Below, in pieces: positions 3,182 through 37,340 of a stretch of 38,129 bases of DNA. Within the stretch, counting starts at the first letter, position 1; each line of letters begins with the position of its first letter. Source of the DNA: Balneolaceae bacterium (GTDB taxonomy: Bacteria > Bacteroidota > Rhodothermia > Balneolales > Balneolaceae); contig JAFIES010000070.1 of NCBI GenBank assembly GCA_020832415.1, forward strand, positions 1-38,129. The letters run 5' to 3'. A program made the translations under genes and the position numbers. The notes under the pieces are model-generated. The model saw only the letters and a list, made by a program, of their open reading frames with translations, did not search any database and was not told the DNA's origin.

Positions 3182-3976
3182 TTACAAAACTTTCTTGTTA
3201 AACAAGTATAGACTTAATCCAGTAAACACTATCGAAAGATATAAAAATGTATCCCATCCAATTCTAAAAACTGATTCTATTGCAAATGCATTTTTTAGTG
3301 CATCACTAAAATAGTGTGAGAAGAGCGGCACTAAAAATTGCCGTTGTTCAACTATCACTTCAGAAAATGATGATAAATTACCAGACATAGTTGTCAGAAT
3401 TTCCAGTCCAAGTGGAGCAATAATCAAATAACCGATAATAAGTGAAACCCTTGAGAAATTATTTTTTGTTAATACAGTAAAAAATATAATTGATGATGTA
3501 ATAAATAAAGTAAGTGGAACCATGTATAGAAAGTGTTTGAAAAAGCTATTAAATAGAAACAATGTTCCTGTACTAAAAGAAATATATGCGGCTAAAATGA
3601 TATAATGAATCAGAAAAAAAGTAAGTACTATCACTATCAGAGCAGCCTTAAATTGAAGCAAAACCCACTCTCTTTTCGGTTTTTTAACAAGAATTAAAGA
3701 TAGATTCTGATTAGAAAAATAAGCACTTATAACCTGAACCATTAGTAAAAAACCAAATATTGAAAAGATCAATCCTTGAAACAAGATCTGCGCAATGAAG
3801 TCTTCAGCACTATTTACATCAGAGAACCATAACCCATCAACAATAAGATTTTCATTGTAATCAAAATTAAGCCCTAGTGTTTGATGATAAAGCAGGTATA
3901 GTGCCAGCAGACATGTAAAATAGAACAAGCTACTTTTTTTTATATAAGAAAGAATAAAACTACTTATAAATTTCAT
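3182..3976 (-). CDS. ABC transporter permease
   Basis: A 264-residue integral membrane protein with about six hydrophobic segments (near 16-33, 62-85, 108-133, 148-170, 177-196 and 239-258). The topology and size fit an ABC-2 type permease as found in bacteriocin-immunity and peptide-export transporters. It overlaps the ATPase gene by 17 bases, so the pair is one transporter. Base composition is markedly AT-rich and lysine/asparagine-rich compared with mgsA to its left, which suggests an acquired locus. The substrate is unknown. Its position downstream of a Cys-rich exported peptide and a lipoprotein suggests export of, or protection against, a peptide (inference). Confidence 0.8.
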   Translation of the reverse strand: MKFISSFILSYIKKSSLFYFTCLLALYLLYHQTLGLNFDYNENLIVDGLWFSDVNSAEDFIAQILFQGLIFSIFGFLLMVQVISAYFSNQNLSLILVKKPKREWVLLQFKAALIVIVLTFFLIHYIILAAYISFSTGTLFLFNSFFKHFLYMVPLTLFITSSIIFFTVLTKNNFSRVSLIIGYLIIAPLGLEILTTMSGNLSSFSEVIVEQRQFLVPLFSHYFSDALKNAFAIESVFRIGWDTFLYLSIVFTGLSLYLFNKKVL

Positions 3977-4637
3977 TGTACGATGCCTGTAATACCAATT
4001 TCTCTTTTACTAATAAAAAATCATCACAAAATGTATTTAACTCCATTAACTCATGGGAGGAAATAAGGATGTATCTATCTTTCTTTATATCCATAAGGAG
4101 TGATTTCAAACGTTTTCTCTGTTCTTGATCCAAACCTTCAAAAGGCTCATCTAAAATCAATACTTCCGGTTTTCCAAGCAGAGCCATAGCAATGTTTACC
4201 CTTTTTTTTGTACCCTTTGATAGCTTATTGTAAGGTAACCCAGCGTAGCTGTCAAGTTGTAAGGCTTCGATCAAATATTTTTGACCGAAGAGTTTTGAAT
4301 CGTTTTTTTTAACAGTTTTATTCAGAGTTGCTTGTAGTTTCAAGATTTCTGAGCAGGTTTTATTTCCTGTTTCAGAATTCATCTCCGGTGCATATCCAAC
4401 AAAAAATAGATCCGGTAACAATTGTGTTTTCTGAGGCTCAGAATTAATCATTAATGTACCGGTACCGTTCGGATTTAATCCAAGAATTGTTTTTATCAGT
4501 GTTGTTTTTCCGGATCCATTTAGCCCGGTTAAAGCTGTAATTTTCCCATTCTCAATCACGAAATCTGATGACTCAATAATGAAATCTTTCTGCCAATGTG
4601 AAGGGTACCATGCAGTAAATCTGAGATATTCAATCAT
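3960..4637 (-). CDS. ABC transporter ATP-binding protein
   Basis: A 225-residue single-domain ATPase. Visible motifs are Walker A GLNGSGKTT (38-46), the signature LSKGTKKR (C-loop with K in place of the common G/S-Q), Walker B EVLILDEPFEGLD and the H-loop ISSHEL. It has no transmembrane or peptidase domain, so it must work with the adjacent permease. The FEGLD D-loop and short C-terminus resemble the bacteriocin/lantibiotic-immunity and ABC-2 drug exporter group, not nutrient importers; no solute-binding protein is nearby. The start lies 18 bases past the stop of the propeller gene, supporting one transcript 5904 to 3182. Confidence 0.9.
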   Translation of the reverse strand: MIEYLRFTAWYPSHWQKDFIIESSDFVIENGKITALTGLNGSGKTTLIKTILGLNPNGTGTLMINSEPQKTQLLPDLFFVGYAPEMNSETGNKTCSEILKLQATLNKTVKKNDSKLFGQKYLIEALQLDSYAGLPYNKLSKGTKKRVNIAMALLGKPEVLILDEPFEGLDQEQRKRLKSLLMDIKKDRYILISSHELMELNTFCDDFLLVKEKLVLQASYNEIYK

Positions 4638-4655: not shown

Positions 4656-5636
4656 TTAAAAATATACAATATCTACTCTTTCATCTCTTCTTACCAGTCC
4701 ATATAGTATTCCATTTTGAACAGCAATAAAATCTACTTTTTCAGGCAATTTTCTTGTATATAAATAATCTCCGGATATTGTAAATGCATGAATCCTTTCT
4801 GATAAATATTCAGAGTAATCTCCTTCCAGTATCATAATTTCTCCATTTTTACTGTCATAAATTACCTGAGATATCAGGCTAAATTCCGGAGCTTCCATAC
4901 CGGGTGGCGGAGAAAATTCTGAATCCAGGAAATCAGAAATCTGATCAGGGTAACCGGGAATCTTAAAATTTTTAATCAGTTCTCCATTTATATTGTATAT
5001 AGAGTTTGAATTAACATAAGCATAAGATTTTAAATACATTCCATCAGTAAGAGGGGTAACAAACCTGATATTTCTGAAATAGAAGTTCCGATGATTTGAT
5101 CTGCTTATTTGAAAATGAATGTTGGTTGAATTCTCATAATTTCTACCCATTACTTCAAAATTTTTATCATTTTGACTCATTGCTATGTAACTGAATAGGA
5201 AAAATTCATCATCAATACTTCTCATATCCAACAATGGATACTCTAAAGAGATGGTTTCCTTAAAATCTAAGTCTTTTGAATAAACATGCACAAACATGTG
5301 GCCAATATTGTAAGCATATACCCTGTTTCTTGAAACACAGATCTTAATTGGCTGCAACTCTGCATATTCGCCCGGTCCTTGGCCAAAACGACCAGCGCTT
5401 GCAATCAAACTCCCTCTATTATCAAATTTCTTTATACTTCCATCCGCACTGTTAGCTAAATAATAAAAGCCTTCTGAGTCAACTTCAAAAGCAGACGGAC
5501 TAAATTCTACTGATAACACAACATCAAATGATGTTGTGTTTATCAATAATGGGTCGAACTTTTCTTGTTTTGTACAACTGACAAACAATAGCAGAGTTAG
5601 TAATGTTGGATTTATTTTTATTACGTTAATAAACAT
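4656..5636 (-). CDS. Six-bladed beta-propeller lipoprotein
   Basis: From the ATG at 5634-5636 the protein (326 residues) begins MFINVIKINPTLLTLLLFVS followed by Cys, a lipoprotein signal ending LFVSC. An upstream in-frame ATG at 5658-5660 overlaps the end of the peptide frame and would put eight residues before the signal, so the inner start is preferred. The body has NHL-like repeats with the hallmark block SADGSIKKFDNRGSLIASAG followed by RFGQGPGEY, as in the Bacteroidota 6-bladed beta-propeller family (BF3874-like). These are cell-surface or periplasmic proteins with no established biochemical activity. It sits between the Cys-rich peptide and the ABC transporter, so a role in binding or handling that peptide is a reasonable guess. 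Confidence 0.85.
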   Translation of the reverse strand: MFINVIKINPTLLTLLLFVSCTKQEKFDPLLINTTSFDVVLSVEFSPSAFEVDSEGFYYLANSADGSIKKFDNRGSLIASAGRFGQGPGEYAELQPIKICVSRNRVYAYNIGHMFVHVYSKDLDFKETISLEYPLLDMRSIDDEFFLFSYIAMSQNDKNFEVMGRNYENSTNIHFQISRSNHRNFYFRNIRFVTPLTDGMYLKSYAYVNSNSIYNINGELIKNFKIPGYPDQISDFLDSEFSPPPGMEAPEFSLISQVIYDSKNGEIMILEGDYSEYLSERIHAFTISGDYLYTRKLPEKVDFIAVQNGILYGLVRRDERVDIVYF

Positions 5637-5650
5637 TATTATATCGGATG

Positions 5651-5904
5651 TTAACTCCATGCATTATAGATAATTTCGGCCGCCATACACCCTCCTTTTA
5701 ATACGTAACATCCTGTAGTACATACACCGTTTGCCATTTCTGATGCCGCGGTAGTTCCACCCCAAGCATCATCACAGTATTCCTTACAATCATCAAATAA
5801 TCCATCACAAGTGGAAGTCGAATCAGATGCCTGTAATAAGTTTACATTTAATATTAAAAAAAAAATACTGTAAGAGTCGTATATATTTTGAATAATCTTG
5901 TCAT
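5651..5904 (-). CDS. Six-cysteine exported peptide, reading frame broken at a T10 tract
   Basis: An ATG at 5902-5904 has a good ribosome site (AAAAGGTG, six bases before). It encodes MTRLFKIYTTLTVFFF, then runs into TAA at 5856-5854 created by ten T residues (plus-strand A10 at 5856-5865). Reading back one base, or adding one T, continues with LILNVNLLQA and then an acidic mature part to a stop at 5651-5653. The joined product is 84 residues: a signal peptide of about 26 (ending LLQA), then 58 residues with cysteines at 33, 40, 44, 62, 66 and 73. The spacing is C-x6-C-x3-C-x17-C-x3-C-x6-C. I know of no family match. The break may be a sequencing error, slippage-based expression, a phase-variable tract or decay. 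The intact downstream frame argues against old decay. It is too short and broken for ordinary gene callers. Confidence 0.65.
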
Positions 5905-6060: not shown

Positions 6061-6506
6061 TTATTTTGTTGCACCACTCAGCCACAATAAATTAATTTTG
6101 GTCTCCTCTTTAAGAACTCTCATTTTCAACTTCGTGAAGTTTGTACCATAGTATGCCGATAAAAACATGGATACATTTTTTGCCCGACTAAACCCCGCGT
6201 CAACAGATACGCAATAGCAGCTTGACTCCAAGCCTTCTTTTCGAATTAGCCAAACCACTTTTTCATATTTTATTTCCCTGAGAATAATCTTCGGCGGCTT
6301 ACCATAAACCAATTTCATCGATTTGCAGAGCCATCTTCGCGACACCCCAGCCTCAGATGCCCAGGTTTGTACATCCGGGATATTTGCAATCCGCTCCTCC
6401 AAAAGCCGGACTGCCTGTTTACACTTGTACTCAATTAGGGGGTTTACTTTGTTTGTTTGTTTGTTTGTTTGTTTGTTTGTTTATCGCCTTCTCTTTCTTC
6501 ATACAT
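6061..6506 (-). CDS. Small AraC-type HTH regulator with frame-breaking AAAC repeat
   Basis: The uninterrupted frame downstream of the repeat encodes an AraC-type DNA-binding domain: first HTH around DVQTWASEAGVSRRWLCKSM, linker KPPKIILREIKYEKVVWLI, second HTH around CVSVDAGFSRAKNVSMFLSA and YYGTNFTKLK. There is no effector domain; about 120-150 residues in all. No ATG begins this frame: going upstream it passes an (AAAC)8 tract and hits TAA at 6483-6481. Two ATGs sit just beyond, at 6506-6504 and 6502-6500, in the other two frames. Adding one repeat unit (9) would join the 6506 ATG to the HTH frame (149 residues); 7 or 10 units would join the 6502 ATG. With 8 units both give only 20-23 residues. 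A TTG at 6402 could allow weak internal initiation (113 residues). It probably controls the operon downstream. Confidence 0.7.
6448..6482. repeat. Tetranucleotide tract (TTTG)8TTT
   Basis: Eight perfect TTTG units plus a partial ninth (35 bases), read as AAAC repeats on the coding (minus) strand of the AraC-type gene. Each unit change shifts the frame by one base. The tract lies between two candidate ATG codons and the HTH-coding frame, the arrangement seen in contingency genes of Haemophilus and Neisseria. In frame it would encode repeated Lys-Gln-Thr-Asn. Confidence 0.95.
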
Positions 6507-35911: not shown

Positions 35912-36157
35912 ATGGATAATACCAAATTATACATACCAATAACGATTGTGAGTTTTATTCTGATTGTCTACTCACTCCTTATATTTGTAGCAGATAAAAA
36001 ATATACACCATCAATTAATTATTCTCTCAAGTTTGATACCATTATTCATCACAATTACAGTCGTCCCTTATCTCTTACTTTAGCCGAAGAATTAAGCTAT
36101 ATCTGGATTCAAGTAAACAAGGCATACATAACAATAATTAGTGTTGAGTTCGATTAA
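35912..36157 (+). CDS. Possible small single-TM protein
   Basis: An 81-residue frame with an ATG start and one hydrophobic helix (about 7-27, YIPITIVSFILIVYSLLIFV) followed by a short soluble tail. Nothing is recognised in it. It lies just before, and slightly overlaps an upstream frame extension of, the second propeller gene. The ribosome site is poor, so it may not be expressed. The region 35644-35911 before it holds only AT-rich sequence and no clear gene. Confidence 0.35.
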   Translation: MDNTKLYIPITIVSFILIVYSLLIFVADKKYTPSINYSLKFDTIIHHNYSRPLSLTLAEELSYIWIQVNKAYITIISVEFD

Positions 36158-36188
36158 TTTGGGACTCACAAATATAAAACCAATCATT

Positions 36189-37340
36189 GTGAAACAGTCC
36201 ATTTATACATTTCTAACTCTTTTTCTCATCTGCAGTTTTCAAACTTACGCCCAACAGTTTACCCTCTCTATGTACGAAACACTAACAATCGGGGAGGAAA
36301 TGAGCGATACCCCCGAATACATGTTCGGGAACAACATTCGTCATGTGCAGCCTTTGAAAGGTGGCAATATTATGATTGCAGACGCCAGCGACAACACCAT
36401 TCGCATATTTAACGGGGATGGTCAATTTCTCCATAAATTTGGCAGGCGAGGACGAGGACCCGGCGAGTTTAGTGAAATCTCTTCAGTTGAAATCACACAG
36501 GATAACCGAATCATTGTCATTGACCGCTACCAAAACAGGGTTACCATATTCAGCCAGGAAGGAGAGCTGTTAAATACCGCAATACTGAACACAACGAACC
36601 TGACTACCACACAATTTATTTTTGAACGGCGGGGGCATAATTCTTTCTTTATCGGTTACAGAGATTTTCTCCGTGAAAATGATGAAGGCCATTACCTGCA
36701 TTTATTTGAAGCCGGGTTTGAAAACGAAATCAGCCGGCACCTGAGCGTGTTCGACCATTTTTTTGACTCCTCCTTGTCTCATGAAGTTCGTCTCTCTCAA
36801 CCACCAAACTACTTTGCTTCAAGATTCGGTTCTCATCAAATTGGAGTTGCACCATCAATTTACACGGGCACAATTGCCGTACTCAACGAAGAGACGAAAA
36901 ATGAAAAACATCTTGGCAGCCCCCTGCCCCAATTTTATGAACTGTATGATTTCGACAGGAGTCAGGAATATTTTGACAGTGATGAGGTTGGATTCAGTAC
37001 CACATCATGGATGAATGAACGCTATTTTTTCAAAAGAAAGGGAGCAAATTTTGGTCTAATAGGAAATCAATTCCTGCTTTTAAATTTTTACGTTCGGTTT
37101 GAAGGATCGGAAATAATTCCTTTTATGCATGTTTATTCTGCCTCAGGAGAGCTGCTCCAAACTGTATCTCTTGAGGAGGCTCCATATCCTTTTATAAAAA
37201 ATGAAAAAGTACTATCTATTAAGCCAATGTACTTTGACCAAGAAAACAAGCTATACATTGTAGATAATTATTACGAAGATACTTACCCCGCTGTGCGTGT
37301 TTTTAAAACCAACCTTCACGAATTGTTGGATCACGAATAA
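36189..37340 (+). CDS. Six-bladed beta-propeller protein, exported (second copy)
   Basis: From a GTG at 36189 the protein (383 residues) begins VKQSIYTFLTLFLICSFQTY then AQQ, a signal peptide cleaved after TYAQ, so it is periplasmic. A GTG at 36141 would add 16 residues before the signal. The propeller motif is strong: IMIADASDNTIRIFNGDGQF followed by LHKFGRRGRGPGEF, then IIVIDRYQNRVTIFSQEGEL. It belongs to the same family as 4656-5636 but, unlike it, is not a lipoprotein and has no Cys-rich peptide or transporter nearby. Function unknown. Confidence 0.85.
   Translation: MKQSIYTFLTLFLICSFQTYAQQFTLSMYETLTIGEEMSDTPEYMFGNNIRHVQPLKGGNIMIADASDNTIRIFNGDGQFLHKFGRRGRGPGEFSEISSVEITQDNRIIVIDRYQNRVTIFSQEGELLNTAILNTTNLTTTQFIFERRGHNSFFIGYRDFLRENDEGHYLHLFEAGFENEISRHLSVFDHFFDSSLSHEVRLSQPPNYFASRFGSHQIGVAPSIYTGTIAVLNEETKNEKHLGSPLPQFYELYDFDRSQEYFDSDEVGFSTTSWMNERYFFKRKGANFGLIGNQFLLLNFYVRFEGSEIIPFMHVYSASGELLQTVSLEEAPYPFIKNEKVLSIKPMYFDQENKLYIVDNYYEDTYPAVRVFKTNLHELLDHE

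Follow-up and report, generated by a model that had tools for sequence, protein, structure and literature searches.

A gene for a small, putatively secreted cysteine-rich peptide in a Balneolaceae genome is broken by a one-base offset at a run of ten T (T10). It stands between a small regulator gene with a tetranucleotide array and the genes of a beta-propeller lipoprotein and an ABC transporter. The gene order, the peptide family, the frame break, the regulator array and the closed register of the regulator are directly observed in the DNA. The explanation that we favour, at slightly better than even probability, is a phase-variable, bacteriocin-like secreted-peptide operon that is off at two levels in this assembly. 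For phase variation, the (TTTG)8.75 array of the regulator is stronger evidence than T10. The window, i.e., the whole stretch of DNA analysed, is 38,129 nucleotides long and contains the following features of the operon:

3182..3976, minus strand: membrane protein, presumed ABC permease (from its position and, by eye, its hydrophobic sequence)
3960..4637, minus strand: ABC transporter ATPase (PF00005, E 2.2e-21)
4656..5636, minus strand: DUF5128 6-bladed beta-propeller with a lipoprotein-type signal (PF17170, E 7.3e-8, 32.4 bits vs a cut-off of 22.9)
5651..5863, minus strand: continuation, with the end of the signal peptide and a six-Cys domain, C-x6-C-x3-C-x17-C-x3-C-x6-C (from the sequence and AlphaFold2 helices)
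5854..5904, minus strand: signal-peptide half, 16 aa and then TAA at the end of T10 (start context like that of the intact G040 relative)
5856..5865, minus strand: T10 tract, where the frame is lost by a one-base offset (from the sequence)
6061..6480, minus strand: AraC-type HTH regulator standing alone; its frame stays open across the array but has no in-frame ATG (PF12833, E 4.1e-6)
6448..6482, minus strand: (TTTG)8.75 tandem array, (AAAC)n in the regulator sense (from the sequence)
6500..6506, minus strand: two start codons, ATG 6506-6504 and ATG 6502-6500, both out of the HTH frame at 8.75 copies

The broken peptide gene and its operon

The minus-strand ATG at 5904-5902, with an SD-like AAGGTG six bases 5′ of it, opens MTRLFKIYTTLTVFFF, and this frame ends at the TAA at 5856-5854. 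The SD and start context resembles that of the G040 relative, AGAGAGGATTATTATG. T10 occupies exactly 5865-5856 (A10 on the plus strand) and is the sole homopolymer of at least ten in the window. The continuation, FFLILNVNLLQASDSTSTC...NAWS, covers 5863-5654 with its stop at 5653-5651, and its 70 codons lie one base off the ATG frame. Given the local base composition, a continuation this long would stay open by chance in about 0.2% of cases, and in the ORF list of the window it has no ATG, GTG or TTG start of its own that would give at least 60 aa. A preliminary description of this DNA had placed a frame break at T10 within the signal peptide, and the sequence confirms it with the coordinates exact. 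The propeller, ABC ATPase and membrane protein genes follow the peptide on its own strand. For the propeller, the start at ATG 5636 was preferred by eye over the mechanically assigned 5660; the membrane protein at 3182..3976 gave no significant family match.

Relatives of the peptide were sought in several genome sets. The first search used the continuation alone as query against 195 related genomes, of which 42 matched at E<=1. The best 30 of those matches were taken to loci, 17 were translated (the window’s own included), and all were scanned for the six-Cys pattern, which kept seven loci (eight peptides) besides the window. Further searches with an alignment covered 395 genomes of the phylum and 92 of the family, and the genome sets overlap; in the phylum search, at least 9 of the 395 genomes matched, the own genome included, with 14 candidates per genome scored. 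Three matches were dropped: a 169-aa protein of G423, which has a CX3C pair and no adjoining propeller, a match in G356 from the phylum search, and a further paralogue in the own genome (E 0.48) with no recognisable peptide locus.

Eleven relatives in nine genomes were obtained (G022, G009, G040, G028, G135, G136, G045 with two, G071 with two, and G197). All of them are unbroken from ATG to stop and encode the signal peptide and the Cys domain in a single ORF, which bears out the earlier view that the two halves in the window are one gene. In ten of the 11, six cysteines are spaced 6-3-12-3-6 or 6-3-17-3-6, the latter being the spacing of the window peptide; the eleventh lacks both C1 and C6, as paired cysteines would go. 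The CX3C-Xn-CX3C motif is present in 12 of 12 peptides, the window’s included. The longest T run in the coding sequence of any relative is eight. The relatives had earlier been named as the comparison to make, in case they carried a tract fixed at ten T and lost the downstream cysteines; a ten-T tract occurs in none of them, and the cysteines are kept. Among the genomes examined, the frame break is private to the window’s genome (1 of 12 peptides). Because no relative has T10, the tract is no conserved recoding device, and slippage at T10 is not supported as a mechanism of the family. In G045, the peptide gene is duplicated in tandem (L083 3865-4341), and one copy has T8 in the signal sequence.

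The mirror-symmetric spacing of the cysteines points to a helical hairpin in which C1-C6, C2-C5 and C3-C4 would form three rungs. The AlphaFold2 model, computed with the window peptide and three relatives, predicts helices at residues 16-34 and 39-69, with a pLDDT of 86-88 over residues 21-50, a mean of 72 overall and a pTM of 0.51. A Foldseek comparison of the model with the PDB gave no match at E<=0.001; a helical hairpin is too generic a fold. Nine members of the family were scanned against Pfam and NCBIfam with no significant match (best chance match E 0.04).

The operon also recurs. A lipoprotein-type gene is located directly downstream of the peptide in 10 of 10 relative loci, and PF17170 was found at E<0.01 in all eight of these genes that were tested, in two of them above the cut-off (G009 was left out, as was G028, where the gene is partial at a contig edge). 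The ABC ATPase is present in 9 of 9 relative loci where the contig extends far enough. The peptide family and its operon are well supported and are held with high confidence. In G197, a DoxX/MauE-like membrane protein, assigned by eye, lies between the propeller and the ABC ATPase (L088 5788-6774). At 35912-37340, the window contains another DUF5128 gene (36141-37340, PF17170, E 2.6e-13) together with an 81-aa plus-strand ORF that precedes and overlaps it, and no simple repeat was found at that locus.

The regulator and its tetranucleotide array

The array-bearing regulator is located about 540 bases upstream of the peptide gene. Its PF12833 match, at 27.4 bits, is below the cut-off of 33.6; its five closest relatives are 58-69% identical, and the one in G013 passes the cut-off. 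Just before the array there are two ATGs, four bases apart, with offsets of 2 and 1 to the HTH frame and products of 20 and 23 aa. The HTH frame itself runs through the array, at whose edge a TAA closes it. Two features of a lic-type contingency layout are found, a tetranucleotide array within the 5′ end of the regulator ORF and upstream starts that are out of frame.

Several comparisons concern the translation of this region. Between the window and G022, the 15 codons from the array to the first internal TTG have a pS of about 1.1 and a pN of 0.27, over a short stretch. In G004, an array-free relative with 60% identity begins with MHEERGSVKQINRVKPLTAFKCEQA at the corresponding start, and its frame continues uninterrupted into the HTH; its MHEE is the same as in the first-ATG products of the array-bearing G002 and G022 copies. 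The regulator relatives in G013, G040 and G045 also have coding sequence before the TTG position. It follows from these data that the array lies in translated sequence. The internal TTG as the start of the regulator is disfavoured, as the codons upstream of it look protein-conserved. Since a change by a TTTG unit would bring the HTH into frame with an ATG, the regulator is likely to be phase-variable, as judged from one assembly. Between the window and G002 regulators, the pS in the 15 codons after the array is 0.00, vs 0.63 in the remainder of the gene (window 6447-6403, L146 67-111). This patch without synonymous change looks as if the switch had spread by recombination, which is possible.

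A small stand-alone HTH gene is found upstream in the window and in four of the ten relative loci of the peptide (G022, G009, G040 and G045), the other six having been judged from ORF lists alone. In the search for the regulator itself, 36 of 92 family genomes had a relative at E<=1e-4, and 30 loci were scanned. In seven of them, the 200 nt before the HTH match contained a simple repeat (A/T of at least 9, G/C of at least 8, or tandem). The repeats near regulator relatives include G8 in G038, A9 in G051 and a homopolymer C8 in G041. As to the neighbours, the relative in G013 precedes a gene of a HlyD-type exporter (PF13437, E 2.4e-16), and the one in G015 precedes a weak match to double-glycine class II bacteriocins, below the cut-off (PF10439, E 7.8e-4). 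The G046 relative has a degenerate array and a stop inside the HTH and is a decayed copy (L155 1391-1640, reverse strand of the locus), showing that loss of the regulator also happens.

Arrays and registers at other loci

In the 3.94-Mb genome there are only two (TTTG) arrays of at least five copies, the one in the window and one on contig C8. The C8 array precedes a LuxR-type HTH (PF00196, E 4.9e-16); a peptide with cysteines and a DUF5128 gene (E 2e-10) come next. Taken together, the 1.5 kb before each of the 13 DUF5128 genes amount to 0.5% of the genome, and both arrays fall there, with a chance near 2e-5 if arrays are spread evenly. No tetranucleotide array of at least four copies other than the window’s occurs in a 438-kb sample, made up of the window and another 400 kb. 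At the C8 locus, (AAAC)8.5 stands before the HTH in a closed register (L148 298-331 and 684-976, G000:C8), and the peptide has a signal-like start, MMKLISIFLLLLLEIT (then a stop), one base off the frame of its continuation, with no long homopolymer.

Across the 92 family genomes, (AAAC) arrays of at least five copies occur at six sites in four genomes, and the order array, HTH, small peptide and propeller-like gene was found in 5 of 5 sites with readable downstream DNA. PF17170 is over the cut-off at the window and C8 loci and just below it in G063 (22.0 vs 22.9 bits, E 1e-4). The G022 gene reaches E 0.037 only and that of G002 has no match at E<=0.05, so that these two are called propeller-like by their place and look. 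The sixth site is on contig C3 of G002, where the contig ends at the array; its first ATG reads into LKPLTA, like the VNPLTE of its neighbour, and its register may be open. Contigs C3 (9589-9673) and C157 (1-66) of G002 share the leader and the array and then diverge, so that either two or more loci use a common switch or the assembly was joined at the repeat. Copy numbers across loci and species are 5.25, 7, 8.5, 8.75, 8.75 and 9. In G019, a G12 tract takes the place of the array, with ATGs in both other frames, and a small peptide and a propeller follow (PF17170, E 1.2e-12). The leader with an array (or poly-G) and a double ATG precedes different HTH types, AraC and LuxR, as well as different peptide modules.

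Six registers, behind AAAC or G12, can be read. Five of them are closed (window, C8, G022, G002 C157 and G019) and that of G063 is open, with 105 aa. As all six loci have ATGs in two frames, two of three registers are expected to be open, and at least five closed registers of six have a probability of about 1.8% under equal registers. The excess of closed registers means that either the off state is favoured or the array acts otherwise. The ten loci with relatives of the hairpin peptide, including the four with an upstream HTH, all lack a tetranucleotide array of at least four copies, and the arrays outside the window accompany other peptides. The array is therefore not a fixed part of the hairpin-peptide operon.

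Proposed switching and alternatives for the T10 break

It is proposed that the peptide of this operon is secreted and probably forms a helical hairpin laddered by disulfides, that the operon supplies a dedicated propeller lipoprotein and ABC transporter for it, and that the small AraC-type regulator would control the operon. Replication slippage would gain or lose a TTTG unit and so put the HTH in frame with one or the other ATG; in this assembly, the register of the regulator would be off. The peptide gene would have lost its frame by a one-base slip at T10 in the DNA and would be off too. As T10 can slip again, this change is potentially reversible, an account of T10 that we place a little short of even probability. 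The ABC transporter and the propeller may provide export or self-protection. The peptide is probably bacteriocin-like, or otherwise acting on neighbouring cells, or signalling, a guess from gene order that draws on the neighbours of the regulator relatives and on the presence of a small secreted Cys-rich peptide beside an ABC transporter. More tentative is a two-level contingency operon, in which (AAAC)n switches the regulator and T10 switches the peptide. In that case, a population would be a mosaic of silent, regulator-only and peptide-secreting cells.

A first alternative, which we regard as unlikely but the strongest of those considered, is recent loss. With the regulator off and selection relaxed, the peptide gene would have lost a base at its most fragile point and would go on to decay. 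The broken copy is unique in the family, with 0 of 11 relatives broken, and a T10 found only in the window copy may be plain loss. The second peptide of the genome behind an AAAC array, at C8, also appears frame-broken, and its offset outside any homopolymer fits the decay of silent loci as well as switching. The decayed G046 regulator points in the same direction. However, all else in the window operon looks intact, i.e., the six cysteines, their exact spacing, the stop codon and the three downstream genes, and in G022 (C14) and G002 (C157) the regulators are closed, yet the peptides, of another kind, are intact.

An assembly or sequencing error, with the real gene intact, is less probable than recent loss. 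Homopolymers are classic error sites, the rest of the peptide gene looks functional, and a second one-base offset in the same direction is seen at C8. Against this stand the 11 A/T runs of at least ten in the whole genome. Four of the other runs lie within ORFs that stay open, which shows no systematic failure of the assembly at runs of this length. Ten is not an obvious length ceiling either, as runs of 11, 12 and 14 were assembled. Six lie outside listed ORFs of at least 60 aa, and T10 is the sole run where a broken gene was recognised, these six having been judged by the ORF list only. The C8 break, moreover, is away from any long run.

Slightly less probable again is transcriptional slippage on U10, by which some mRNA would be in frame and the gene would be a pseudo-pseudogene (Baranov et al., 2005). 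According to the accessible text of PMC1088944, runs of at least nine A/T are slippery in many bacteria, and a run of this kind joins or splits frames in Shigella mxiE, where it is a U run, and in Thermus dnaX. The dnaX gene of the genome studied has A10 at codon 368, like the Thermus arrangement described there; at L065 1501-1510 (G000:C28:25258-25267), insertion of one A would terminate the product 2 aa after the run, at 373 aa. This is the arrangement of programmed tau/gamma slippage, and by analogy the organism may use slippage elsewhere. In contrast to mxiE and Thermus dnaX, the window tract is not conserved among its homologues. The same text takes a conserved run as a sign of purposeful use of slippage, and a run of at least nine is conserved in 0 of 11 relatives, the longest T run in them being eight. 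Minus-one ribosomal frameshifting on U UUU UUU, a heptamer in the right phase with the UAA stop directly after it, is very improbable, as no stimulatory structure was found in the 93 nt that follow the tract (z -0.24; 80 of 200 shuffles fold at least as well) and a long U run is in no relative.

Relation to known systems and significance

The best-known contingency loci are those that affect surface structures of host-adapted pathogens. In lic1A of Haemophilus influenzae, starts are present in more than one frame, as at the window regulator. H. influenzae is one such pathogen, and in its tetranucleotide contingency genes, as far as the accessible part of PMC2651432 describes them, the array lies inside the ORF at or just after the start and a unit change shifts the frame, which is the arrangement proposed here. 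The window locus differs in its phylum and its AAAC unit, and it is known from one assembly. It also differs in the gene that would be switched, here a small HTH regulator ahead of an operon for a secreted peptide, in H. influenzae the genes of surface-sugar enzymes. Among the literature matches listed, from which subscription papers were mostly absent, there was no example of a two-level contingency operon in this group. The same literature gave no paper on NVEALA, on propeller plus NVEALA or on phase variation in Balneolaceae; the matches listed for SSR phase variation in Bacteroidetes, for phase-variable bacteriocin regulators, and for tetranucleotide starts, lic1A and propellers included nothing on this system.

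In Bacteroidota, pairs of a peptide and a 6-bladed beta-propeller (DUF5128, PF17170) exist, including those with NVEALA-type peptides, for which a curated model exists. Like them, the window operon places the gene of a small secreted peptide immediately before that of a DUF5128 lipoprotein; unlike them, it includes an ABC transporter and an array-bearing regulator. None of the nine peptides scanned matched an NVEALA-type curated model in Pfam or NCBIfam at E<=1. In its CX3C-Xn-CX3C motif, and in the helix-loop-helix predicted for it, the peptide resembles plant alpha-hairpinins, according to the accessible parts of PMC11591084 and PMC7191063, and the C34 relative in G071 has just the four alpha-hairpinin cysteines. 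In contrast to alpha-hairpinins, the window family has an additional, outer pair of cysteines, each spaced six residues from the inner ones, and it is bacterial and comes with an operon. No family model shared by the two was found in Pfam or NCBIfam, plant sequences not having been compared directly.

The peptide family, with its mirror-symmetric cysteine ladder and recurrent operon, is outside all Pfam and NCBIfam models. If the favoured explanation is correct, then contingency logic would act here on small regulators of secreted Cys-rich peptides in little-studied bacteria, and bet-hedged production of a bacteriocin-like peptide would be predicted. It would also explain why such peptides look broken or go missed in assemblies, and an AAAC array behind ATGs in several frames would serve as a handle for finding more such loci. 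Poly-G was considered as a general marker of peptide loci and rejected, with only two of 12 G>=8 sites of the genome at peptide or propeller loci. Two more peptide-propeller loci of the genome have G8 (L037 305-312 and 361-702; L040 402-1290), in one case just before the peptide and in the other near the end of the HTH gene.
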